Source of the DNA: Candidatus Eremiobacterota bacterium
Lineage (GTDB): Bacteria > Vulcanimicrobiota > Vulcanimicrobiia > Vulcanimicrobiales > Vulcanimicrobiaceae
DNA length: 64,000 bases
Assembly: GCA_019240525.1 (NCBI GenBank)
Contig: JAFAYE010000001.1
Coordinates: 2,391,300-2,455,299 of the forward strand
Direction of reading: 5' to 3'
Below the pieces are notes generated by a model, which saw only the letters and a program-made list of their open reading frames with translations, did not search any database and was not told the DNA's origin. The number at the start of each line of letters is the position of its first letter. Within the stretch, counting starts at the first letter, position 1. The position numbers were made by a program, and so were the translations under genes. Of the stretch, positions 28,907 to 45,890 are shown in pieces.

Positions 28907-30217
28907 TTAGCTGCCGAGTGACGGGAAAATGATCTGCGCCGTCGAGACGACCGTAAGCGCGCCGACGATGACGACCGTCGCCCAGGCGATGGTGTTGAAC
29001 GTGCGGCTATTGGTCCATGCGCCCATCAGCCGCTTGTTATTGATCAGGAGGAGCATCAGCACGAGGACGATTGGTAGCAACATGCCGTTGAGCACCTGCG
29101 AGTAGAAAATGATCGCGAGCAGGGGGGCCCCCGGCACGATCACCGCGCCCGCTCCGACGAAGATCAGCGCAAGATAGAACGAGTAGAAGATCGGTGCCTC
29201 GCGAAAGCGGTGATCGATTCCGCGTTCGAATCCAAAGGCTTCGCAGACGTAATAGGCGGTGGAGAGCGGTAGAATTGAAGCCGTAAAGACGGCCGCGTTG
29301 AGCAGGCCCAACGCGAAAAGTAAGGCGGCGAACTTTCCGGCAATGGGCACGAGGGCAACGGCTACGTCACCGACGCTATTGACCGCAATCGGATGAGCGG
29401 CGTGAACGTTATGGACGAAGATCGTGGCGGCACACGCCACGATGATGAAATAGGCAATAACGTCGGTCCATATTCCTCCCGTTACGACGTCGAGACGCGA
29501 AAACCGGTATTCCTCTTCGCGAATGCCTTTGTCGACGATCGCCGCCTGGATGTAGAATTGCATCCAGGGTGAAATCGTCGTTCCAATCACGGCGATGATC
29601 ATGATCACGTACGCTTTTGAGGCCTGCCAGTGAGGGATGATGCTTTGGCGAAGTACGTCCTTCCAGTCGGGGTGCACGAGAAATGCACTAACGACGTACG
29701 CAATGTAGACGAAACAAAAGACGAAGAAGATTCGTTCGACGACTTTAGCCGTCCCACGGGTAACAGTGAAGAAGACGAAGCACGCAGCCGCCACAACCAT
29801 TGCAATCTTGAACGCCTCGGGATTCGCCACGTGGAGGTATCCACCGAAAATCGGCGCCGACGCGGCGACGCCGGCGAATTCGGTGGCCGTATTCCCGACG
29901 TCGCCGAGAACGAAGAGCAGCAAACACCAAAACGTGATCTTAACGCCGAAATTCTCACGGATAAGGTCCGCTAGGCCCTTGCCCGTGACCGCGCCCATGC
30001 GCGCGCACATCTCTTGAACGACGATTAACGCTATGGTGATCGGAATCAGCAGCCAGAGCAGGGTGTAACCGAACTGCGCTCCTGCCTGGGAATAGGTTAA
30101 GATCCCGCCCACATCGTTGTCGGCGTTGGCCGTGATGATGCCCGGCCCCACGATGGAAAGAAACATGATGACCGAGCGCAACGCGTTTGGACGCGCGATG
30201 CGTGGCGACGAGGTCAT
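28907..30217 (-). CDS. Nramp-related divalent cation transporter, probably Mg2+ (NRMT-like)
   Basis: 436 aa, about eleven TM helices. Nramp-fold signatures are seen, but TM1 reads 'GPGIITANADNDVGGILTYSQAGAQFG' in place of the DPGN of Mn/Fe Nramps, and TM6 reads 'IGTTISPWMQFY' with no MPH. Nramp-related transporters lacking these motifs have been shown to carry Mg2+, and some are under M-box control in Clostridium. Here an M-box riboswitch with terminator lies upstream on the same strand, so Mg2+ uptake under Mg2+ limitation is the best reading. ATG at 30217 has AGGA 3 nt upstream and lies 5 nt after the stop of a 47-codon ORF. A TTG 9 codons earlier is possible. Confidence 0.88.
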   Translation of the reverse strand: MTSSPRIARPNALRSVIMFLSIVGPGIITANADNDVGGILTYSQAGAQFGYTLLWLLIPITIALIVVQEMCARMGAVTGKGLADLIRENFGVKITFWCLLLFVLGDVGNTATEFAGVAASAPIFGGYLHVANPEAFKIAMVVAAACFVFFTVTRGTAKVVERIFFVFCFVYIAYVVSAFLVHPDWKDVLRQSIIPHWQASKAYVIMIIAVIGTTISPWMQFYIQAAIVDKGIREEEYRFSRLDVVTGGIWTDVIAYFIIVACAATIFVHNVHAAHPIAVNSVGDVAVALVPIAGKFAALLFALGLLNAAVFTASILPLSTAYYVCEAFGFERGIDHRFREAPIFYSFYLALIFVGAGAVIVPGAPLLAIIFYSQVLNGMLLPIVLVLMLLLINNKRLMGAWTNSRTFNTIAWATVVIVGALTVVSTAQIIFPSLGS

Positions 30218-30222
30218 AGTTC

Positions 30223-30366
30223 CTAGCTGACCAGAGCTCGCCAAAAGCTAAAGCTTGGCGTTCGGTCGCCTTGGTTTGCGCGAAGCGTATCGTCGTGGAG
30301 CGGCGCACCGGCCGGACGGAATACGCGGCCCCAGAGATCGAGCAGAAATTCAAGGACTCTTTTCAT
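30223..30366 (-). CDS. 47-aa microprotein in the M-box operon
   Basis: ATG at 30366 is preceded by AAAAAGGAGG with a 9-nt spacer, one of the strongest ribosome sites in the window. The product starts MKRVLEFLLDLWGRVFRP, a possible amphipathic helix with basic residues, followed by a polar segment and the C terminus FWRALVS. The TAG stop overlaps the AGGA site of the transporter, leaving 5 nt to its ATG, so the two genes look translationally coupled. It lies after the riboswitch terminator and should be made only when Mg2+ is low. No family is recognised. It might be a regulator or subunit of the transporter, or a leader whose translation opens the transporter start. Confidence 0.65.
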   Translation of the reverse strand: MKRVLEFLLDLWGRVFRPAGAPLHDDTLRANQGDRTPSFSFWRALVS

Positions 30367-30470
30367 GGCACGTTACCTCCTTTTTAACTAACGGTTTGCC
30401 GCGCCGAACGAACGGGCGCAGCATCTACTACCTGGTCCGTCGTCCATGGCTGGACATCACCCCCTTTCCA

Positions 30471-30509
30471 AAATAAAAAAACTGTCGCTCTCCTCGCCAG
30501 TCGACAGTT
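30471..30509 (-). terminator. Riboswitch-controlled intrinsic terminator
   Basis: On the minus strand AACTGTCG (30509-30502) pairs perfectly with CGACAGTT (30487-30480) across a 14-nt loop, followed directly by a run of T (TTTTTATTTT to 30471). It lies 30 nt after the M-box aptamer and before the microprotein. It is the expected expression platform: Mg2+-bound aptamer permits the hairpin and stops transcription. Confidence 0.9.
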
Positions 30510-30539
30510 CGAGAAACTACGCGCGGCAGCCGCGCTATC

Positions 30540-30717
30540 TCCCTCAGAGTCGAGCTTTAGCACTGCACGACGTAGTACCCTGACATCCCGGACCGGGGCG
30601 AGGGACCAGCCGCATTAGATTCCGCCTTGATTCGGCGGGATCTGGTCACCCGTTGGGGTCTCTCGACCTTTCCGGGCAGCGGCATCTCTTCGTGCAGACG
30701 CCTCACCTAACGAGGAA
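30540..30717 (-). ncRNA. M-box (ykoK leader) Mg2+ riboswitch
   Basis: On the minus strand the conserved M-box blocks occur in order: CGTTAGGTGAGGC (about 30711), CCGCTGCCC (about 30680), GTCGAGAGAC then CCAACGGGT (about 30665-30650), TAATGCGGCTGG (about 30610), and GCAGTGCTAAAGCTC near the 3' end (about 30570-30555). Closing stem P1 forms between 30712-30717 and 30540-30545. These are the core residues of the B. subtilis mgtE M-box. The RNA folds around several Mg2+ ions and turns off downstream transport genes when Mg2+ is plentiful. A consensus promoter lies just upstream and an intrinsic terminator just downstream. Confidence 0.95.
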
Positions 30718-30726
30718 TCCTTCACC

Positions 30727-30754
30727 AGAATACTCCCGACCGAGGCTTTGTCAA
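30727..30754 (-). promoter_or_regulatory. Sigma-70-type promoter for the M-box operon
   Basis: Minus strand: perfect -35 TTGACA (30754-30749), 16-nt spacer, -10 TATTCT (30732-30727). The predicted start near 30720 falls a few nucleotides before stem P1 of the riboswitch, which fits well. It lies in the 5' leader of the divergent mutL gene. Confidence 0.8.
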
Positions 30755-36616: not shown

Positions 36617-37489
36617 TTAGTTCATAAAGGAGAGCCCGGCTCCGATATAGTGCTGCTTTTGGCCGTTGACAAGCGTCGGCGAGAACCCATACTCGGTGTC
36701 GAACTCAAGGTGAGAGCCGAAGACGCGCTGGTAGACGAAATCGATGAGGCTCTTCGACCCCAAGTTCGGACCGGCGGCCGAGTAGTAGGCGTATTCGGCC
36801 GAAATTTGCGAGGGGCCGCCCGGGAGGGCGGCGCTCAGCTCGACGCTCGGAATGAAAGCAAAATACGATTGCGCGAGGCCTGTCGCATTCGGTCCGCTCA
36901 GCGCGTTGAAACTCAACGTTCCGGCCAGACTGAACTCCGGACTGATCGTATAGCCCCCATCGAGATCGCCCGTAAATTCAGCGTTGCCCGCAGTGAAGGC
37001 TTTGCTGCCCGTTGGATAGGTAATCGCTGCATACAGGCCCCAATCCGCCGCCGAGCTATAACCGAGCTCGTACTTCGCGGCCAAACTGACGTCGCCCCAA
37101 CCGGTGACGGCCGGCGTTCCGACCGAGGACGTTTCGTGGCTTGGTAGTCCGAACTCGACATCGAAATGCGGATCCGCGGTGCCTACCCGTACCAACGCCT
37201 GGGGGTAGACGGCGCTGCTTCCGCCGCCAACTCCGCTCGTCGTTGTGTTCGTATAGCCGGTTTCCACGTCGAAATGTCCGGGTCGTACCGTACAGACGCC
37301 GGTTGAGACGGTCGGACGATTCACGATCGAGAGTATCGAACCGCATGGATCGCTGGGCGCGGTGGGTGAGGGCGATGGGCTTGGCACGGGCGACGACGGC
37401 GAAAGAGCCGCACCCGCGAGCGCGCGACTGGGGAGACTTGCGAGGCCGCATATCAGAGCGGCGACCGCAACGATCGCGGTACGTACCAT
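36617..37489 (-). CDS. Probable outer-membrane beta-barrel protein
   Basis: 290 aa. Signal peptide ('AIVAVAALICGLASLPSRALAG'), a Pro/Ser linker (30-45), a CGS...C segment (Cys49/Cys66, possible disulfide), then about ten short amphipathic strands rich in Gly, Tyr and Ser, ending in '...HYIGAGLSFMN'. The strands 'GHFDVETGYTNTT', 'DVEFGLPSHET' and 'DVSLAAKYELGY' resemble the MetA-pathway/transporter-type barrels. Precedes amt and is divergent from the kdp operon. Function unknown. Confidence 0.65.
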   Translation of the reverse strand: MVRTAIVAVAALICGLASLPSRALAGAALSPSSPVPSPSPSPTAPSDPCGSILSIVNRPTVSTGVCTVRPGHFDVETGYTNTTTSGVGGGSSAVYPQALVRVGTADPHFDVEFGLPSHETSSVGTPAVTGWGDVSLAAKYELGYSSAADWGLYAAITYPTGSKAFTAGNAEFTGDLDGGYTISPEFSLAGTLSFNALSGPNATGLAQSYFAFIPSVELSAALPGGPSQISAEYAYYSAAGPNLGSKSLIDFVYQRVFGSHLEFDTEYGFSPTLVNGQKQHYIGAGLSFMN

Positions 37490-37705: not shown

Positions 37706-37795
37706 GTGGGCTTTGACGACGCCGTAGGGCTCCTGCTCACGGTCCTTGGGTTGAGCTACCTGGTCTTCGCCATGTTGCGCCCGGAAAGGTTCTGA
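37706..37795 (+). CDS. kdpF: K+-transporting ATPase small subunit KdpF
   Basis: 29 aa from GTG, single TM helix 'AVGLLLTVLGLSYLVFAML' ending in RPERF, the C-terminal signature of KdpF. It stabilises the KdpFABC complex. The TGA overlaps the kdpA ATG (TGATG). Confidence 0.9.
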   Translation: MGFDDAVGLLLTVLGLSYLVFAMLRPERF

Positions 37796-39495
37796 TGAGC
37801 GCCGTCGGCTGGGTGCAGGCTATCGTCTTTTTTGCGATCGTGGTGGCGTTGACCAAACCGCTCGGCGCGTACATGGCGCGCGTTTTCGAGGGTCAGCGTA
37901 CCTGGCTGAGCCCCGCTTTGGTGCCAGTCGAGAGGCTGGCGTACCGGTTATGCGGGGTGCGCGAAAACGAAGAGATGACGTGGTACGCGTATGCGCTGTC
38001 GATGCTGGCGTTTTCGTTGGTAAGCCTAGCCTATCTCTACGTTCTGTTGCGGACGCAAAAGTGGTTGCCTTTCAATCCGGCCCACGTGGATAACATGGCG
38101 CCTGATTTGGCCTGGAACACCGCCGTCAGTTTCACGACGAATACGAACTGGCAGTTCTATTCCGGTGAGACGGCGATGAGTTATCTCGCCCAAATGGCCG
38201 GCCTTGCATGGCACAATTTCGTTTCGGCCGCCGTGGGCATCGCGATCGCCGTTGCCGTCGTGCGCGGTTTGGTGCGAACCAGCGTGAAGACGTTGGGTAA
38301 CTTCTGGGTCGATCTCACGCGTTGCTCGCTCTATATCCTGCTGCCAATTTCGATCGTGGTCGCAATCGTTCTCGTGTCGCAGGGTATGCCGCAAAACTTT
38401 CATGGTTATGCGAGCGTGAAGTCGATCGAGGGCTTCGCCCAGACGATAACGCAAGGTCCGATTGCCTCGCAAGAGGTGATCAAAGAACTCGGCACCAATG
38501 GCGGCGGTTTCGTCAACGCGAACTCGGCCTCGCCGAGTGAGAATCCCACTCCGCTGAGCAATTTCATCGAGATGTTGCTCATCTTTGCGCTCGGTGCCGG
38601 GCTTACGTCGATGTACGGCACAATGGTCAAAGACGCACGCCAGGGCTGGGCGATCTTCAGCGCAATGGCGATACTGTTTTTCGCGGGTTTTACCGTCGCC
38701 TATTGGGCGGAGGCAGCGGGGAACCCGATCGTTCATCATTTAGGCGTCGCTGGAGCAAACATGGAAGGCAAGGAGTGCCGCTTCGGCATCCCGGCCTCGG
38801 CGCTCTTTGCGACCGTGACCACCGACACGTCGTGTGGCGCGGTCAACTCCGTGCACGACTCGTTCACGGCGCTCGGCGGTTTGATTCCGCTCGTCAACAT
38901 GCAGCTCGGTGAAGTCGTCTTCGGCGGCGTCGGCAGCGGGCTCTACGGCATGATCGTCTTCGTGGTGTTGACGGTCTTCATCGCCGGATTGATGGTTGGA
39001 CGGACTCCCGAGCTCATGGGCAAGAAGGTGGAACGCCGAGAGGTGCAGTTCGCGATTCTGGCGGCCTTGGTCACGCCGGTGCTTTCGTTGGTGCCGACGT
39101 CGGTTGCGGCGATGCTTCCAGCGGGATTGGCAACGCTCAATAATGCCGGTCCGCATGGCTTTTCGGAGATCCTCTACGCCTTCACTTCTACCAACGCCAA
39201 CAATGGGTCCGCCTTTGCGGGCTTGGGCGCGAACTTATTCTATAATCTCCTGACGGGCGTCAATATGATGTTCGGACGCTTTGCCGTCGCCATTCCCGCG
39301 CTCGCGCTGGCGGGCGCCCTGGCAGGCAAAACCGCGGTGCCCGAGAGTGCCGGGACGTTTTCAACCCGCTCCCCCATCTTCGTTGCGCTGCTGATCGGCG
39401 TGATCGTGATCGTCGGCGCGCTGACGTTTCTCCCCGCCGATTCGCTTGGACCGATCGTGGAGCATCTGCTCATGCTGCGAGGGCAAACCTATTAG
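37795..39495 (+). CDS. kdpA: Potassium-transporting ATPase subunit KdpA
   Basis: 566 aa channel-like subunit, about ten TM helices. The four selectivity-filter repeats are visible: 'SFTTNTNWQ', 'GTNGGGFVNANSA', 'DTSCGAVNS' and 'NANNGSAFAG'. N terminus 'TKPLGAYMARVFEGQRTWLSPALVPVER' is typical. It selects K+ and passes it to KdpB. Start overlaps kdpF. Confidence 0.97.
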   Translation: MSAVGWVQAIVFFAIVVALTKPLGAYMARVFEGQRTWLSPALVPVERLAYRLCGVRENEEMTWYAYALSMLAFSLVSLAYLYVLLRTQKWLPFNPAHVDNMAPDLAWNTAVSFTTNTNWQFYSGETAMSYLAQMAGLAWHNFVSAAVGIAIAVAVVRGLVRTSVKTLGNFWVDLTRCSLYILLPISIVVAIVLVSQGMPQNFHGYASVKSIEGFAQTITQGPIASQEVIKELGTNGGGFVNANSASPSENPTPLSNFIEMLLIFALGAGLTSMYGTMVKDARQGWAIFSAMAILFFAGFTVAYWAEAAGNPIVHHLGVAGANMEGKECRFGIPASALFATVTTDTSCGAVNSVHDSFTALGGLIPLVNMQLGEVVFGGVGSGLYGMIVFVVLTVFIAGLMVGRTPELMGKKVERREVQFAILAALVTPVLSLVPTSVAAMLPAGLATLNNAGPHGFSEILYAFTSTNANNGSAFAGLGANLFYNLLTGVNMMFGRFAVAIPALALAGALAGKTAVPESAGTFSTRSPIFVALLIGVIVIVGALTFLPADSLGPIVEHLLMLRGQTY

Positions 39496-39516
39496 CACGT
39501 CATCGCGGGTTTCTCG

Positions 39517-41574
39517 ATGTTAACTCGAAGGCGGCTCGAGCGGCGTCCGAAAGCGCGTTCGCTCTTCGATCGCGCCATCGTCACGCGTGCCTTCCGGGAC
39601 TCTTTGCGGAAGCTGGATCCGCGGTGGCAGGCTCGCAATCCGGTGATGTTCGTCGTTGAAGTCGGAGCGGCCGCGACGACGGTCTTTTTTCTTCGCGACT
39701 TGCTGCACCGCCAGGCGTCGCCGGGATTCGATTTTGCGATCGCCGCATGGCTCTGGTTTACGGTACTCTTTGCCAACTTCGCCGAAGCCGTCGCCGAGGG
39801 GCGAGGAAAGGCGCAAGCCGATAATCTGCGACGGACGAAGTCCGATACGTACGCTCGATTGTTGCGCGACTACGGCAGCGAGGAGCGAATCAGCTCCACC
39901 GCGCTGCGCAAAGGCGATCGTTACGTCGTGGAAAGCGGCGAAGTCATTCCGGCCGACGGCGAGGTGCTCGAAGGGGCGGCCACCGTCGACGAGTCGGCCA
40001 TTACCGGCGAATCGGCGCCCGTCATTCGCGAATCGGGCGGTGATCGCAGCGCGGTCACCGGCGGTACGCGCGTTCTCTCCGATCGGATCGTCGTTCGCGT
40101 CACGGCAAACCCCGGTGAAAGCTTTCTCGATCGAATGATCCGTCTCGTGGAAGGTGCGCAGCGGCAGAAGACGCCCAACGAAATCGCGCTTTCGATCCTG
40201 CTCTCCGGGCTGACGATCATCTTTTTGATCGCGGTGGCGACGTTGGCACCGTTTTCCATCTATGCGGGATCGCATCAAAGCGTCACCGTTTTGATCGCGC
40301 TGTTGGTCTGTCTGATTCCGACCACAATCGGCGGTTTGCTTTCGGCGATCGGCATCGCCGGGATGGATCGCGTCATGCAGCGCAACGTTTTGGCGATGAG
40401 CGGTCGCGCGGTCGAAGCAGCGGGAGACGTGGACACGCTCTTACTCGACAAGACCGGAACGATCACGCTGGGCAACCGCCAAGCCGTCGAAATCATCACC
40501 GCCGCGGGGATTGATGCAAGAGACGCCGCGCGAATCGCCTATCTCTCATCGCTTGCCGACGAGACTCCGGAGGGCCGTTCGATCGTTGCGCTGGCGCAAC
40601 AGGTAGGCGCGCGCGACGGCGATGCGCCCCAGGGATCGGTCTCCGTTCCGTTCAGCGCGTACACCCGAATGAGCGGACTCGATCTCGCCGATGGAAGCAG
40701 GATTCGCAAAGGTGCGCCCGACTCGGTGCTGACCTGGGTGCGAGATGCCGGCGGCACGCCGACGGCGGAACTCGCGCCCATCATCGAGCGCATCGCGCGC
40801 AGCGGCGGAACGCCGCTCTTGCTTGCCCGCAACACTCTCGTTGTCGGCGTCATCTACCTCAAGGACATTCTCAAGCCGAACATGACCGAGCGTTTCGGCC
40901 GGCTGCGCGCGATGGGAATCCGCACCGTCATGATCACCGGCGACAATCCTCTGACGGCGGCTACGATCGCGAAGGAAGCCGGCGTTGACGATTTTCTGGC
41001 GGAAGCAACGCCTGAAACGAAAATGGAGCTGATCAAGCGCGAGCAGAACTCCGGTCGGCTCGTCGCGATGACCGGCGACGGGACGAACGACGCTCCGGCC
41101 CTGGCGCAATCGGATGTCGGCGTTGCGATGAACTCCGGAACGCAAGCCGCCAAAGAAGCGGCGAACATGGTCGACCTCGACTCCGATCCGACAAAACTGA
41201 TTGAGATTGTGGAGATCGGCAAGCAGCTGCTGATGACGCGCGGCGCGCTGACGACGTTCTCGATTGCCAACGACGTGGCCAAGTATTTCGCGATCTTGCC
41301 GGCCATGTTCGCGATCGCCTATCCGGCAATGAACGTACTCAACATCATGCGATTGAGCACGCCGCAGAGCGCGATACTCTCGGCCGTAATCTTCAACGCG
41401 TTGATTATCGTCGCGTTGATCCCGCTGGCGCTTCGAGGCATTCGCTACGAGCCCAAGGGCGCGAACCGCGTGCTCTTCGAGAACGTCATGCTCTACGGCG
41501 TGGGAGGGATCATCGTGCCGTTCATCGGCATCAAACTCATCGACCTGATCTTGACCGCGTTTCATCTGACATGA
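39517..41574 (+). CDS. kdpB: Potassium-transporting P-type ATPase subunit KdpB
   Basis: 685 aa. Phosphorylation site DKTGT with Asp311; actuator loop 'TGESAPV'; '[10 protein letters not shown]'; '[34 protein letters not shown]'; and TM5-region '[14 protein letters not shown]' with the charged D/K pair of KdpB. It hydrolyses ATP to power K+ uptake through KdpA. 21 nt after kdpA; end overlaps kdpC (ATGA). Confidence 0.97.
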
Positions 41575-42146
41575 TCCGCCACCTCGGTACCTCGCTTCGC
41601 TTCACGGTACTTTCGGTCGTGTTATTGGGACTGATCTACCCTCTGGTGATGACAGGCATCGCGCAAGCCCTCTTCCCATGGCAAGCGAACGGGTCGATGG
41701 TGACGATCAACGGCAAACTCGTCGGCTCGGCAATCATCGGGCAACGATGGACAAACCCGCGTTACTTTCACGGGCGGCCCTCGGCGGCTGGAAAAGGCTA
41801 CGACCCGACGTCAACCGGCGGCACAAACTACGGCCCCACTTCGAAGAAATTAATCGATGCGACCAGAGCGACGATCGCCGCGCTGGAGAAGGAAAATCCT
41901 AACGCCGGCGGACCGCCGCCGATGGATTTGATCACTTCCAGCGGAAGTGGAATCGATCCCGACATCACGCCGGAGGCCGCCTACTGGGAAGCCGCCCGGG
42001 TCGCGAAAGCGCGGCATATGAGCACCGAAGAAGTGGACGCACTCGTGGCGCGGCACCTCAGAGGTCGAACCTTCGGGTTTCTAGGCGAGCCTCGCGTCAA
42101 CGTGCTTGAGCTCAATCTCGCGCTGGACGGGTTGAAGCCGCAATAA
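41571..42146 (+). CDS. kdpC: Potassium-transporting ATPase subunit KdpC
   Basis: 191 aa. One N-terminal TM helix ('[32 protein letters not shown]'), then a periplasmic domain with '[41 protein letters not shown]' and '[31 protein letters not shown]', all conserved KdpC landmarks. It assists K+ binding by the complex. Its stop is 4 nt from the convergent KdpD-module gene. Confidence 0.96.
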
Positions 42147-42150
42147 CGGG

Positions 42151-44277
42151 CTACTCGTCGCTGGATTCCGCCGATCCGGTGGCGGGCGGCGCGAGGATCA
42201 GGAGCTCGCGAGCGCCGGCATCGAGTAGACGGCGCGGAAAAGAGGGTCGTTCGAGCAAACGCGGCGCGCGCCGCGCCCCGGCGACGGCGATCGTGGTCTC
42301 GGCTCGCGAACGGGCGATCTCGAGCAAGCGCTTAGGTACGTCGTCGGCCACCTCGTCGATCCATTCCACGTTCGTCTTTCGCGCCTCAGCCCGCAGGCGT
42401 TCGACCGTCGTCGCGTCGACCCGGGAGCGCGACGACACCACGTGCGCGATCGCGAATTCGATCGCAAGTCGTGCCGCGATTCTCCCCGCACGCGGAATCA
42501 TTGTGAAATCGACTTCGCGCGAGCCAATTGCCAGAAGAATCCGCTCGAAGGGCGACGCGATTCGTTCCCGGTGGCGTGCGCGCAGCGCCTCGCGCAGAGC
42601 GAGCTCGCGCAACGCGAACAAGTTCTCGATACGGAAGAAGTTTGCGAGTGCCGCTTCGACGCGCTCGGGCGGATAGATCTTTCCCTCACGCAGACGCTGG
42701 CGCAGCGCTTGCGGACTTATATCGATGAGGGTGACTTCGTCTGCCAGCGAGAGAATTCCATCCGGAAGCGTTTCGCGCACGATGGTACTGGTTAGCCTAA
42801 GGATCGTGTCGCTCAACGCCTCGAGATGTTGCACGTTCAACGTCGTGATCACATCGATTCCAGCGCGAAGGACGGCCAACACGTCGTAAAAGCGTTTCGG
42901 AGCGACCGATCCGGGCGCGTTGCTGTGGGCCAGCTCGTCGATCAAGGCCACGCGCGGGCGACGCGCGATCAAAGCGTCGCGATCGAATTCGCGGTAGGTG
43001 ATGCCGCTCGATTGAACGATCTTCGGAGGAACTACTTCGAGGCCGTCGAGCAAGGCGGCAGTTTCCTTTCGGCCGTGCGTTTCCACGAAACCCCCGACGA
43101 CGTCGACACCCTCGGCTTTCAATTGATGTGCCCGATCGAGCATCGCGTACGTTTTTCCAGCGCCCGCTGCCGCGCCAAGATAAACGGTGAGCTTGCCGTA
43201 GCCCACGCGCAGGCGATCGCCGGCGGTTTGCGAGTAGGGTGAGCGCGCCGGATTTTTGCCGAGATACGTCTGTTCGGAGGCCACGACGAAGAGATCGTAC
43301 GGGAGCGGTTTGTTTGCGAGCTTCAAGGCGGCCCGTCCACTTGGAAGCGCCGCGAGCGACGCGCGGAGCGGATCGTCCAAAAGGCTTGCGGGATCGAAGG
43401 TATCGTGGAGCATCTCGATTCCGAGCTCGCGGGTCGTGCGCTCGAGCGCCGTGCAGTCGACGCCGCGCACGGGGACAACCTCGAGGCCTAAGTCGAGTGC
43501 CTGTGCGATCGCGCTGGTTCGCTTGAGCAGCGGTAGTGGATCGAGGTGCGGGAAGACGAACGCGGCCGCCATCGAGGTGCGTCCCGACTTGATCGCGGGC
43601 AGCGTCAGATTGTCGACGGTGCGCAGCAGCAGTTCGCGCAGCATGGAGAGCGTCTGTTCTTTAAAGATACCATTGAGCGCGCGCTCGATATCCTGTTCGT
43701 TGACGATCTTTCCGGCGCGGACGCGATGCTGCAGTAACCGGGGGGAGACGTCGAGCGCCACGACTTCGTCGGCCGCTTGTAAGAAGGAAAGGGGAACGAT
43801 TTCGCGGACGGGATAACCGATTAGCGCTTCGGCCGTCGGCGCAATCGTTTCAAGGTGCTGAATGTTGAAGGCGCCGATCACGCCGATACCCGCATTCTTC
43901 AGCGCAAGGGCGTCTTGCCAGCGCTTGGCGTGCGGCGCCTCGCCGAGATTATCGTGCGCAAGTTCGTCGAGCAGAACGACGTCCGGTTTTTGGCGTACGG
44001 TTTCGTCGTAGTCGAACTCTTCGAAGACGCGATCGGCAAGATGCACTTGACGCGGCGGAATCCGCGGCAAGCCTGCCGCGATGCGTTCGAGGTCGGGGCG
44101 GCCCTTTGTTTCGATCCATCCAATGACGACGCGCTTGCCGTCCACCGCCAGCCGACGTGCGTCCTCGAGAAGCCGGCGGGTCTTGCCGGAGCCCGGCGCG
44201 CTTGCGACGTAGACGACGAGCCGCGCGCGGCCTCCGATTTCGCGTAAGAGCTCTTCGGCTTTCGCCGCACGATCCAT
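42151..44277 (-). CDS. Duplicated KdpD sensor module protein (KdpD-Usp twice, no kinase)
   Basis: 708 aa from ATG at 44277 (AAGG 7 nt upstream; an earlier ATG at 44331 lacks one and runs over the divergent kinase's leader). Two KdpD N-terminal domains in tandem. Copy 1 has Walker A APGSGKT (27-33) and 'LLDELAHDN' (about 103-110). Copy 2 has AAAGAGKT (369-376) and 'LIDELAHSN' (447-453). Each also has the 'NIQHLE/NVQHLE' motif. Each is followed by a Usp-like alpha/beta stretch (about 235-335 and 575-700), degenerate after copy 1. TM helices, GAF and kinase domains of KdpD are absent. The KdpD domain senses K+/nucleotide or c-di-AMP state. Likely partner: the kinase encoded divergently next door. 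Confidence 0.85.
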   Translation of the reverse strand: MDRAAKAEELLREIGGRARLVVYVASAPGSGKTRRLLEDARRLAVDGKRVVIGWIETKGRPDLERIAAGLPRIPPRQVHLADRVFEEFDYDETVRQKPDVVLLDELAHDNLGEAPHAKRWQDALALKNAGIGVIGAFNIQHLETIAPTAEALIGYPVREIVPLSFLQAADEVVALDVSPRLLQHRVRAGKIVNEQDIERALNGIFKEQTLSMLRELLLRTVDNLTLPAIKSGRTSMAAAFVFPHLDPLPLLKRTSAIAQALDLGLEVVPVRGVDCTALERTTRELGIEMLHDTFDPASLLDDPLRASLAALPSGRAALKLANKPLPYDLFVVASEQTYLGKNPARSPYSQTAGDRLRVGYGKLTVYLGAAAGAGKTYAMLDRAHQLKAEGVDVVGGFVETHGRKETAALLDGLEVVPPKIVQSSGITYREFDRDALIARRPRVALIDELAHSNAPGSVAPKRFYDVLAVLRAGIDVITTLNVQHLEALSDTILRLTSTIVRETLPDGILSLADEVTLIDISPQALRQRLREGKIYPPERVEAALANFFRIENLFALRELALREALRARHRERIASPFERILLAIGSREVDFTMIPRAGRIAARLAIEFAIAHVVSSRSRVDATTVERLRAEARKTNVEWIDEVADDVPKRLLEIARSRAETTIAVAGARRAPRLLERPSFPRRLLDAGARELLILAPPATGSAESSDE

Positions 44278-44336
44278 AGCACTGCCTTCGCGCAGTTGCA
44301 AGGCGCCTCCGCCGATTGCACGGAAAGCCATCGATA

Positions 44337-45890
44337 GTGGCCCTACTCTGTTACGCCTTACTCGTCGCCGCGTGGGTTCTCGATCTCGTTACGCCGCAGC
44401 TCTTTATCGCGGCCATCTTGTTCAATGGGCCGATCGCGCTGAGCAGTCTCGCGCTCAAGAGGCGGCTGACGACGAATTTAATTGTCGTGGCGGAGATTGC
44501 GAACGCTGTCGCAGGGTACGTTAACGGCGTACAAGCCGGCCATCGTTGGGACGGTGTTGCAGTCGCCGACCGGCTGCTGTTAGCGGCATCGTTCGTACTC
44601 GTTGGATATCTCAGCGTCAAGACGCAAGAATATGCGCGCGAGGCGGGCGTGTCGACAGGCCGAATGCGGCAGGTCGAAATCGAGAAGGCGCTTCGCGAAG
44701 CGACGAGCCGCGTGCGGGGAACCCTCAACGTCGACCTCGTCCGCCGCGCCATCACCCGCGAATCCGTCGCGCTGGTCGGCGCATCGATGGCGACCTTGGT
44801 CGTCCGTGAAGCGCCGTTCGGCGTACCGCTTCTGCTAACGTATCGGGAGGGTCAGCCCGACGTTGCCATGGAGCGACGCGCACTTTCCACAGAAATGGCA
44901 TCGCTCGTCACGCGAGCGGCCGAGGCCGGTGACGTCTTTCGCGTGAACTCGGGCGATCTTCTCGGCCGAGCGACGCTCGAAGCGCTTGGCGCCCGTGAAG
45001 CGATCGTAACCGCGATTGCCACCGCGGAGCAGCACGGTCACGTTTTGATCGAAGCGGTGAGCGGCGAAAAATCGTTCGTCTCCGACGCAACGGTGACCCT
45101 CCGCGCGTTTGCGCAGCAGGCTGCCATGGCGCTCGAGCAAGCCCGGCTGTTCACGCAGTTGGGAGAGCGAAACGATGAGATCGCCCGCCAGAAGGACGAA
45201 TTCGCCGAACGCGGTGACGTCATCCGTGACATCGTCTACGCCCTGGCTCACGATCTTCGTACTCCGCTGGCTGCTGCACACGTGACGATGAATCAAGCCG
45301 TGCGCGGCGCGTACGGCGAGCTTCCGCAAAGCTATCGCGACATCTTGAGCACCGCGATTGTCGCTAACGACGACCAGCGGCGAATCGTCGAAACGTTACT
45401 GCTCGTCGCGCGCTATGAGGCGGGAGAAGCCTCGATGTTGCGGGAGGGCGTTGATTGTAAAGAGCTCATCGCGCGAATCGTCGCCGAGCTGAGTCCCGTT
45501 GCCGAAATGAAGGGTATCGTGTTGCGCGAGGAACTGCCCTCGCAGCCGTTGCCGGCCGAGGGCGATCCCCACGAGCTTCGGCGCGCCATCGCAAACCTTC
45601 TGGCGAACGCGATCGATGCGACGCCGCGTGGCGGCCACGTCGTCGCGCGAGGCTCGCAGTCGGCCGAGGCGATAACGATCGGTATCGAGGACGACGGTTA
45701 TGGGATTCCCGAAGCGCGCCGTGCGGGGCTCTTTCAACGTTTTGGCGGCGGCCAACCTGGCTCGGGAACGGGGCTGGGCCTTTACATTGTTCGGCGGATT
45801 GCAGAAAAGCATGGCGGTACGGTCGCATACGAGCCGCAAACACCTCGCGGGAGTTCCTTTACGATGACATTGCCGAAATCGACGGGATAG
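44337..45890 (+). CDS. Sensor histidine kinase, KdpD C-half-like (TM-GAF-HisKA-HATPase)
   Basis: 517 aa. GTG at 44337 has GGAAAG 9 nt upstream. About four N-terminal TM helices (about 1-95) and a coiled linker. A GAF domain (about 120-275: 'TRESVALVGASMATLVVREA...FVSDATVTLRAFAQQAAMALEQARLF'). H-box 'ALAHDLRTPLAAAH' with His305. HATPase N box 'NLLANAIDATPRG', G1 'DDGYGIPE', G2 'GSGTGLGLYIV'. This is the same order as the C-terminal half of E. coli KdpD, whose N-terminal module is encoded by the divergent gene 59 nt away. The response regulator follows after 2 nt. Confidence 0.85.
   Translation: MALLCYALLVAAWVLDLVTPQLFIAAILFNGPIALSSLALKRRLTTNLIVVAEIANAVAGYVNGVQAGHRWDGVAVADRLLLAASFVLVGYLSVKTQEYAREAGVSTGRMRQVEIEKALREATSRVRGTLNVDLVRRAITRESVALVGASMATLVVREAPFGVPLLLTYREGQPDVAMERRALSTEMASLVTRAAEAGDVFRVNSGDLLGRATLEALGAREAIVTAIATAEQHGHVLIEAVSGEKSFVSDATVTLRAFAQQAAMALEQARLFTQLGERNDEIARQKDEFAERGDVIRDIVYALAHDLRTPLAAAHVTMNQAVRGAYGELPQSYRDILSTAIVANDDQRRIVETLLLVARYEAGEASMLREGVDCKELIARIVAELSPVAEMKGIVLREELPSQPLPAEGDPHELRRAIANLLANAIDATPRGGHVVARGSQSAEAITIGIEDDGYGIPEARRAGLFQRFGGGQPGSGTGLGLYIVRRIAEKHGGTVAYEPQTPRGSSFTMTLPKSTG

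Follow-up and report, generated by a model that had tools for sequence, protein, structure and literature searches.

M-box-regulated nrmT genes are known from Clostridium acetobutylicum (Shin et al. 2014, PMC4072509). The locus described here shares with them an M-box in front of a gene for an Nramp-related Mg2+ transporter, a predicted control by transcription attenuation and a transporter clade that stands apart from MntH. It differs in that neither a microprotein nor a leader ORF has been described in C. acetobutylicum, and in that the usual partner there, a gene for an MgtE N-domain, is unlinked here (L224). On the protein side, the transporter resembles EleNRMT of Eggerthella lenta (PMC8806188; 7qia). 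Both proteins keep DxxG, a glutamate in helix 3 and a glutamine in helix 10, and both have lost the methionine and the two histidines of helix 6. However, EleNRMT harbors an alanine at the methionine position and an asparagine in place of the second helix-6 histidine, whereas a serine and an isoleucine occur here.

A likeness by layout exists to the M-box / rv1805A / pe20-ppe31...mgtC operon of M. tuberculosis (D'Halluin et al. 2026, PMC12810186), in which the M-box is followed by a poorly conserved uORF1, a conserved uORF2, an outer-membrane channel and MgtC. This arrangement is matched stepwise by congeners of the bacterium studied here. The mycobacterial operon is characterized by a translational platform together with Rho, a PE/PPE channel and a Mycobacterium-specific peptide (PMC12810186), whereas the Eremiobacterota loci harbor an intrinsic terminator with a co-varying antiterminator, a barrel of classical type and NRMT. 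In Salmonella and E. coli, short ORFs with a strong Shine-Dalgarno sequence (SD) and acidic or proline-containing starts control Mg2+ transporters (mgtL, mgtQ; PMC11552253, PMC8092293). The present locus resembles the Salmonella cases in a very short ORF with a strong SD and an acidic/Pro N terminus in front of a gene for a predicted Mg2+ transporter, but these cases lack an M-box, and no counterpart of the mgtQ hairpin switch was detected in the Eremiobacterota loci.

The core of the operon was thus already known, as NrmT has been described as M-box-controlled since 2014 (PMC4072509). Of interest are the two conserved, hitherto undescribed small ORFs and the pore partner of relatives, rather than the pairing of M-box and NRMT. 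M-box control of NRMT is now extended to a whole uncultured phylum; a search of one literature collection found no account of Eremiobacterota riboswitches. The M-box regulon moreover gains two peptide-coding elements that are conserved, and an outer-membrane barrel specific to this lineage. The role of small proteins beside M-boxes and a possible use of riboswitch-controlled pores for the passage of Mg2+ through the outer membrane become questions that can be approached outside a pathogen.

Organization of the operon

The window, a stretch of 64,000 nucleotides, belongs to the metagenome-assembled genome (97% complete) of an uncultured soil bacterium of Candidatus Eremiobacterota. On the minus strand, a promoter, an M-box, an intrinsic terminator, a leader ORF, a 47-aa microprotein and an NRMT-type transporter follow each other. 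With a probability of nearly 0.9, this locus is a Mg2+-repressed operon for Mg2+ uptake, in which an M-box attenuation switch is combined with an NRMT importer. The features in order of transcription are:

30727..30754, minus strand: sigma-70 type promoter TTGACA-N16-TATTCT
30536..30721, minus strand: M-box (ykoK) Mg2+ aptamer, RF00380 (E 1.3e-28)
30536..30554, minus strand: 3' strand of aptamer helix P1, which is the left antiterminator strand, CTCGACTCTGAGGGAGATA (from the fold and the co-varying duplex)
30501..30517, minus strand: right antiterminator strand GTTTCTCGAACTGTCGA, overlapping the 5' arm of the terminator (from the fold and co-variation)
30474..30510, minus strand: intrinsic terminator with a perfect 8-bp stem AACTGTCG/CGACAGTT, a 14-nt loop and T7
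30455..30469, minus strand: extended SD GGAAAGGGGGTGATG of the leader ORF, near-perfect and kept in relatives
30388..30447, minus strand: leader ORF (uORF1), 19 aa, MDDGPGSRCCARSFGAANR, with the conserved N terminus MDDGP/S (here MDDGP...); retained in 37-39 relatives
30376..30384, minus strand: SD AAAAGGAGG of the microprotein, AGGAGG-like in most relatives
30223..30366, minus strand: 47-aa microprotein MKRVLEFLLDLWGRVFRPAGAPLHDDTLRANQGDRTPSFSFWRALVS, core HDDxLRANQ...FSFWRALV (from homologues and pN/pS)
28907..30217, minus strand: NRMT-type (SLC11/Nramp-related) Mg2+ transporter, 436 aa (from the EleNRMT match, motifs, tree and PF01566)

An earlier note on this DNA had described a TTGACA-16-TATTCT promoter, a conserved M-box and a perfect 8-bp terminator stem with a T-run, followed by two coupled genes. 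The promoter was recovered with 10 of 12 matching bases and is found at the same position in relatives, the M-box scored far above threshold (128.9 bits in the RF00380 covariance search, gathering score 44), and the stem and the T7 following it were seen, with the co-varying antiterminator as their main support. Microprotein and transporter are coupled as described, with a gap of 5 nt, but the chain really consists of three ORFs, the leader ORF having been missed.

M-box, terminator and antiterminator

The promoter ends 5 nt before the M-box, and the predicted transcription start at about 30720 is the 5' edge of the M-box. In relatives carrying the same promoter, the -10 element is separated from the M-box start by 5-7 nt. 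Across 113 loci the mean best promoter score was 8.85, compared to 6.71 for shuffled upstream sequence. The match to the M-box covariance model covers its full length (positions 1-169), and a genome-wide search showed that the M-box at 30721..30536 is the only one in the genome. M-boxes are present in 96 of the 149 phylum genomes, and 116 M-box loci collected from the phylum formed the comparative set. Almost all of them stand before NRMT, MgtE_N followed by NRMT, a second Nramp type, outer-membrane pore genes or MgtC.

The terminator stem is formed by pairing of 30509..30502 with 30487..30480. Its hairpin has a folding energy of -12.5 kcal/mol, which is no better than that of shuffled sequences (z=-0.94), and with its 14-nt loop it was too long to be picked up by a pattern scan, whose other matches were at chance level. 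As the z-score was not significant, comparative pairing was used as evidence instead. In the predicted fold of the leader, CTCGACTCTGAGGGAGATA pairs with GTTTCTCGAACTGTCGA to form the antiterminator, with which both P1 and the terminator are mutually exclusive. Terminator-like hairpins were detected at 100 of the 116 M-box loci. At these 100 loci, the duplex between the P1 strand and the terminator arm had a mean energy of -12.77 kcal/mol, compared to -10.85 kcal/mol (sd 0.25) when the arms were swapped between loci, and none of 300 swaps reached the value of the true duplexes. Compensatory changes are visible by eye: CTCGAC is paired with GTCG in the family of the window, and CTCAACG with CGTTGAG in another. 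Given this co-variation of the antiterminator strands, the prediction of a transcription attenuator that Mg2+ turns OFF is well supported. The identity of the aptamer and the pairing of antiterminator and terminator are established computationally; Mg2+ as the presumed ligand is taken over from the characterised family.

According to the proposed mechanism, transcription would start at the edge of the M-box. At ample Mg2+ the aptamer would fold, P1 would keep hold of the antiterminator strand and the terminator would form, stopping transcription about 240 nt in. At low Mg2+ the freed P1 strand would pair with the 5' arm of the terminator, leading to read-through by RNA polymerase. The resulting mRNA would be translated as a chain, in which the 19-aa leader ORF is followed after 21 nt by the 47-aa microprotein and after a further 5 nt by NRMT, and NRMT would bring Mg2+ across the inner membrane.

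In the congener G003 the aptamer core is missing, although the promoter, the antiterminator half, the terminator, the leader ORF, the microprotein and NRMT are retained. At this locus (L146) the place of the M-box core, some 150-350 nt before the leader ORF, is taken by other sequence that contains the repeat-like CCTTCGACAAGCTCAGGATGAC, and the edges of P1 remain. The M-box of G016 (L070) has a similar repeat-like stretch in its variable arm. For the missing core of G003, both a natural loss of control and an error in the assembly are conceivable.

The leader ORF

The SD of the leader ORF, GAAAGGGGGTGATG, is complementary to almost all of the 3' tail that 16S rRNA usually has. Leader ORFs in relatives were searched as an SD followed by the first ATG or GTG, with no codon fixed. 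With the loci in which MgtE_N or NRMT is itself the first gene set aside, this rule found a separate small ORF led by an SD at 39 of 49 M-box loci. Among these 39 relatives, Asp2 occurs in 38, Asp or Gly at position 3 in 36, Gly4 in 28 and Pro or Ser at position 5 in 31; about 11 of them harbor Gly at position 3 (VDGS). Conservation is limited to the first five or so codons, and there is no constraint at the protein level from about codon 9 onward. Codons 3-5 show much synonymous change but codon 2 little, so part of the signal may reside at the RNA level. The stop codon of the leader ORF is located 21 nt before the microprotein start in the window and 11-21 nt before it in 18 of 20 loci. This regular spacing suggests coupling. 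The leader ORF presumably sets downstream translation, possibly in a Mg2+-dependent manner through its acidic N terminus.

Due to the precedent of mgtL and mgtQ, a second Mg2+ sensor acting by ribosome destabilization is a reasonable hypothesis for the leader ORF. The acidic and proline-containing N terminus would destabilize ribosomes at low Mg2+ and thereby gate translation or Rho termination of the read-through mRNA. In favor of this hypothesis are the conserved Asp2, Asp3/Gly3, Gly4 and Pro5/Ser5, the synonymous changes at codons 3-5, the missing constraint further on and the strong extended SD of the leader ORF. The 8-aa mgtQ of Salmonella requires Asp2, Glu5 and a strong SD (PMC8092293), and acidic and proline residues are of importance in mgtL (PMC11552253). 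However, one or two aspartates are fewer acidic residues than in the strong cases, the Gly3 of the VDGS relatives is a weak destabilizer, and the codon 2 signal is perhaps partly due to the RNA. Moreover, an mgtQ-like hairpin hiding the SD of the microprotein was not found in 20 loci (mean unpaired 0.53, compared to 0.55 with the ribosome placed). A sensor function of this kind is considered unlikely.

The microprotein

Homologues of the microprotein were found in 14 of 18 congeners, including 9 of the 10 better genomes, and the family is present in 24 of 117 genomes of the class. It has no match in Pfam or NCBIfam. Directly behind an M-box stand 23 of the 27 good copies. The four exceptions are the copy in G003 with its lost aptamer core, a copy before a barrel gene without an M-box in G060, an orphan in G028 and, in G061, a second copy that closely precedes an M-box. 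The gene after the microprotein varies, being NRMT, another Nramp type (MVGDNDAGA), a barrel or an OprB porin. The residues M1, H24, D26, L28, R29, A30 and W42 are invariant. The pN/pS ratio is 0.46 overall, 0.27 in the core from the histidine onward and 0.71 in the N-terminal helix, which indicates that the microprotein is a real protein under purifying selection and that its C-terminal half is the most important part. The coding potential of both small ORFs is a computational result. A structure model of the microprotein shows three short helices at low confidence (pLDDT 61). Its most likely role is that of a small protein that assists or regulates the carrier in the inner membrane or, in operons that have one, the pore in the outer membrane.

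Alternatively, the small ORFs could serve as a translational relay only, which keeps ribosomes on the mRNA past the terminator and passes them to the next gene, the peptides themselves being inert. The regular distance of 11-21 nt between leader stop and microprotein start and the short gaps after the microprotein would agree with such a relay. An inert peptide is, however, disfavored by the low pN/pS of the microprotein core and the invariant H, D, LRA and W; moreover, microprotein copies precede different genes and are in a few places not accompanied by an M-box. A mere relay is considered improbable. The likelihoods given for the sensor and the relay concern the roles of the small ORFs and do not compete with the claim on switch and transporter.

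The putative outer-membrane partner in relatives

In most congeners, a gene located between those of the microprotein and NRMT encodes a protein of 616-633 aa whose N terminus is signal-like, and in several of them NRMT is followed by an MgtC gene (MgtC by Pfam). The order in these congeners is leader ORF, microprotein, beta-barrel, NRMT and MgtC. The barrel family comprises 22 loci, was found only in Eremiobacterota-type records and also occurs behind M-boxes in other families of the class. A Pfam search with the barrel (616-680 aa) returned no family. A many-stranded beta-barrel was predicted (pTM 0.69), and a fold search retrieved porins with low TM-scores (0.2-0.4 on the query), so the protein is classified only as a probable beta-barrel, porin-like, with no finer class claimed. 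G009 and G060 have an OprB-family porin in the operon. No copy of the barrel gene was found anywhere in the genome of the window, so the window operon is a reduced form. In G014 (L063), a barrel gene with an internal deletion, of which a 156-aa ORF is left, is located at +373..+841 after the M-box. This is likely a gene-loss intermediate towards the short operon of the window.

In the most far-reaching view, two Mg2+ sensors might act in series on one mRNA, the M-box deciding on termination and the conserved MDDGP leader behind the terminator destabilizing ribosomes at low Mg2+ through its nascent chain. A dedicated microprotein would then adjust the Nramp-type importer and, in relatives, also a Mg2+ pore of the outer membrane that is under riboswitch control. 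This combination is speculative and quite doubtful. If true, the operon would be a unit for Mg2+ uptake across two membranes.

The transporter

The transporter matches the Pfam family Nramp (PF01566) with 302.6 bits. Its closest solved structure in phmmer searches was EleNRMT (7qia, E 4.6e-94), followed by MntH (2e-24). The metal site consists of DxxG in helix 1 (DVGG) and TxxS in helix 6, and SPW is found where MntH has MPH. NRMTs carry the signature DxxG-TxxA/T, whereas DxxN-A/CxxM is the signature for Mn2+/Fe2+ (PMC8806188). The threonine is kept and the methionine is lost in the present protein; the serine at the helix-6 site, compared to the Ala/Thr reported for NRMTs, is between alanine and threonine in kind. 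TxxS occurs in 65 of the 71 Eremiobacterota NRMTs and TxxA in the remaining 6. According to the alignment, the helix-3 Glu and the helix-10 Gln are retained, and both helix-6 histidines are replaced (W, I). The loss of both histidines would be consistent with a Mg2+ transport that is not coupled to protons.

A maximum-likelihood tree groups the transporter with the NRMTs. The MntH proteins of E. coli and of the genome itself are far removed from it, on a separate long branch. EleNRMT joins the clade of Eremiobacterota NRMTs at 95/70, which is below the 95/80 mark, and with this support and the long branches its exact place is soft. The family assignment is a computational finding; Mg2+ as the presumed substrate is adopted from the characterised members.

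A canonical MntH identity was rejected, as DPGN and MPH are absent, the NCBIfam MntH score is 135.6 bits compared to a cut-off of 430, and the tree separates the protein from MntH. The earlier note had viewed the protein as a non-canonical Nramp that transports Mg2+ rather than Mn2+/Fe2+. This view is supported, as far as sequence comparison can tell, by the grouping with EleNRMT, apart from DPGN/MPH MntH proteins including L002 of the same genome, and by the absence of any other Mg2+ importer family. A likely automatic annotation as mntH is corrected by this assignment.

That the M-box acts as stated but the transporter carries mainly Mn2+ or other transition metals, induction at low Mg2+ restoring the Mg/Mn balance, is very unlikely. 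In its favor, an NrmT relative from Acidobacterium capsulatum rescued a Mn2+ defect and hardly a Mg2+ defect (PMC4072509), EleNRMT also carries Mn2+ in vitro (PMC8806188) and the site harbors Ser instead of the Ala/Thr of characterised NRMTs. Against it, no M-box precedes the gene of A. capsulatum, the window transporter lacks the binding-site Met and has both proton-path His replaced, and the genome possesses a canonical MntH of its own and no other Mg2+ importer family.

Other metal transport genes of the genome

CorA, the MgtE membrane domain and MgtA were searched in the 97% complete genome and none was detected, although positive controls worked. Due to their absence, NRMT is likely the Mg2+ importer of the genome, and apparently its only one. 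As other known Mg2+ importer families are missing, the metal specificity can be read from the riboswitch. Mn2+ is probably covered by L002, a canonical MntH (DPGN, MPH) that adjoins a DtxR/MntR-like gene. Two more outgroup Nramp-like genes, L004 and L005, are present. L005 (G000:C1:1788257-1789774) shows TxxT and GY in helix 6 and has no M-box; its neighbor on the opposite strand is an MgtC gene.

L224 encodes MgtE_N-CBS without the membrane part; it is unlinked to the operon and has no M-box. In sister genera an MgtE_N gene is located between M-box and NRMT, an order also seen in the operons of PMC4072509, and MgtE_N is the first gene in 44 of the 116 loci. Another Nramp type under M-box control, about 550 aa long, was observed at L037, L138, L139, L143, L144, L179, L200 and other loci. 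It has a conserved N-terminal HxGDIxGAxGTI and MVGDNDAGA in helix 1, with DxxA/TxxA in the one row measured, and the tree places it apart from both NRMT and MntH.

Elsewhere in the window

A gene at 42151..44331 (minus strand) encodes a protein of 726 aa in which KdpD sensor domains stand twice in tandem (PF02702, two stretches) and a kinase part is absent. Opposite to it, at 44316..45890 (plus strand), lies a separate histidine-kinase-like gene, and kdpABC (37795..42146) adjoins. The genes at 42151..45890 may represent an unusual split and duplicated KdpD. At 36620..37489 (minus strand), a 290-aa secreted beta-rich protein without a Pfam match is encoded, which by eye resembles the protein behind a weak M-box match in a relative (G027, L054).
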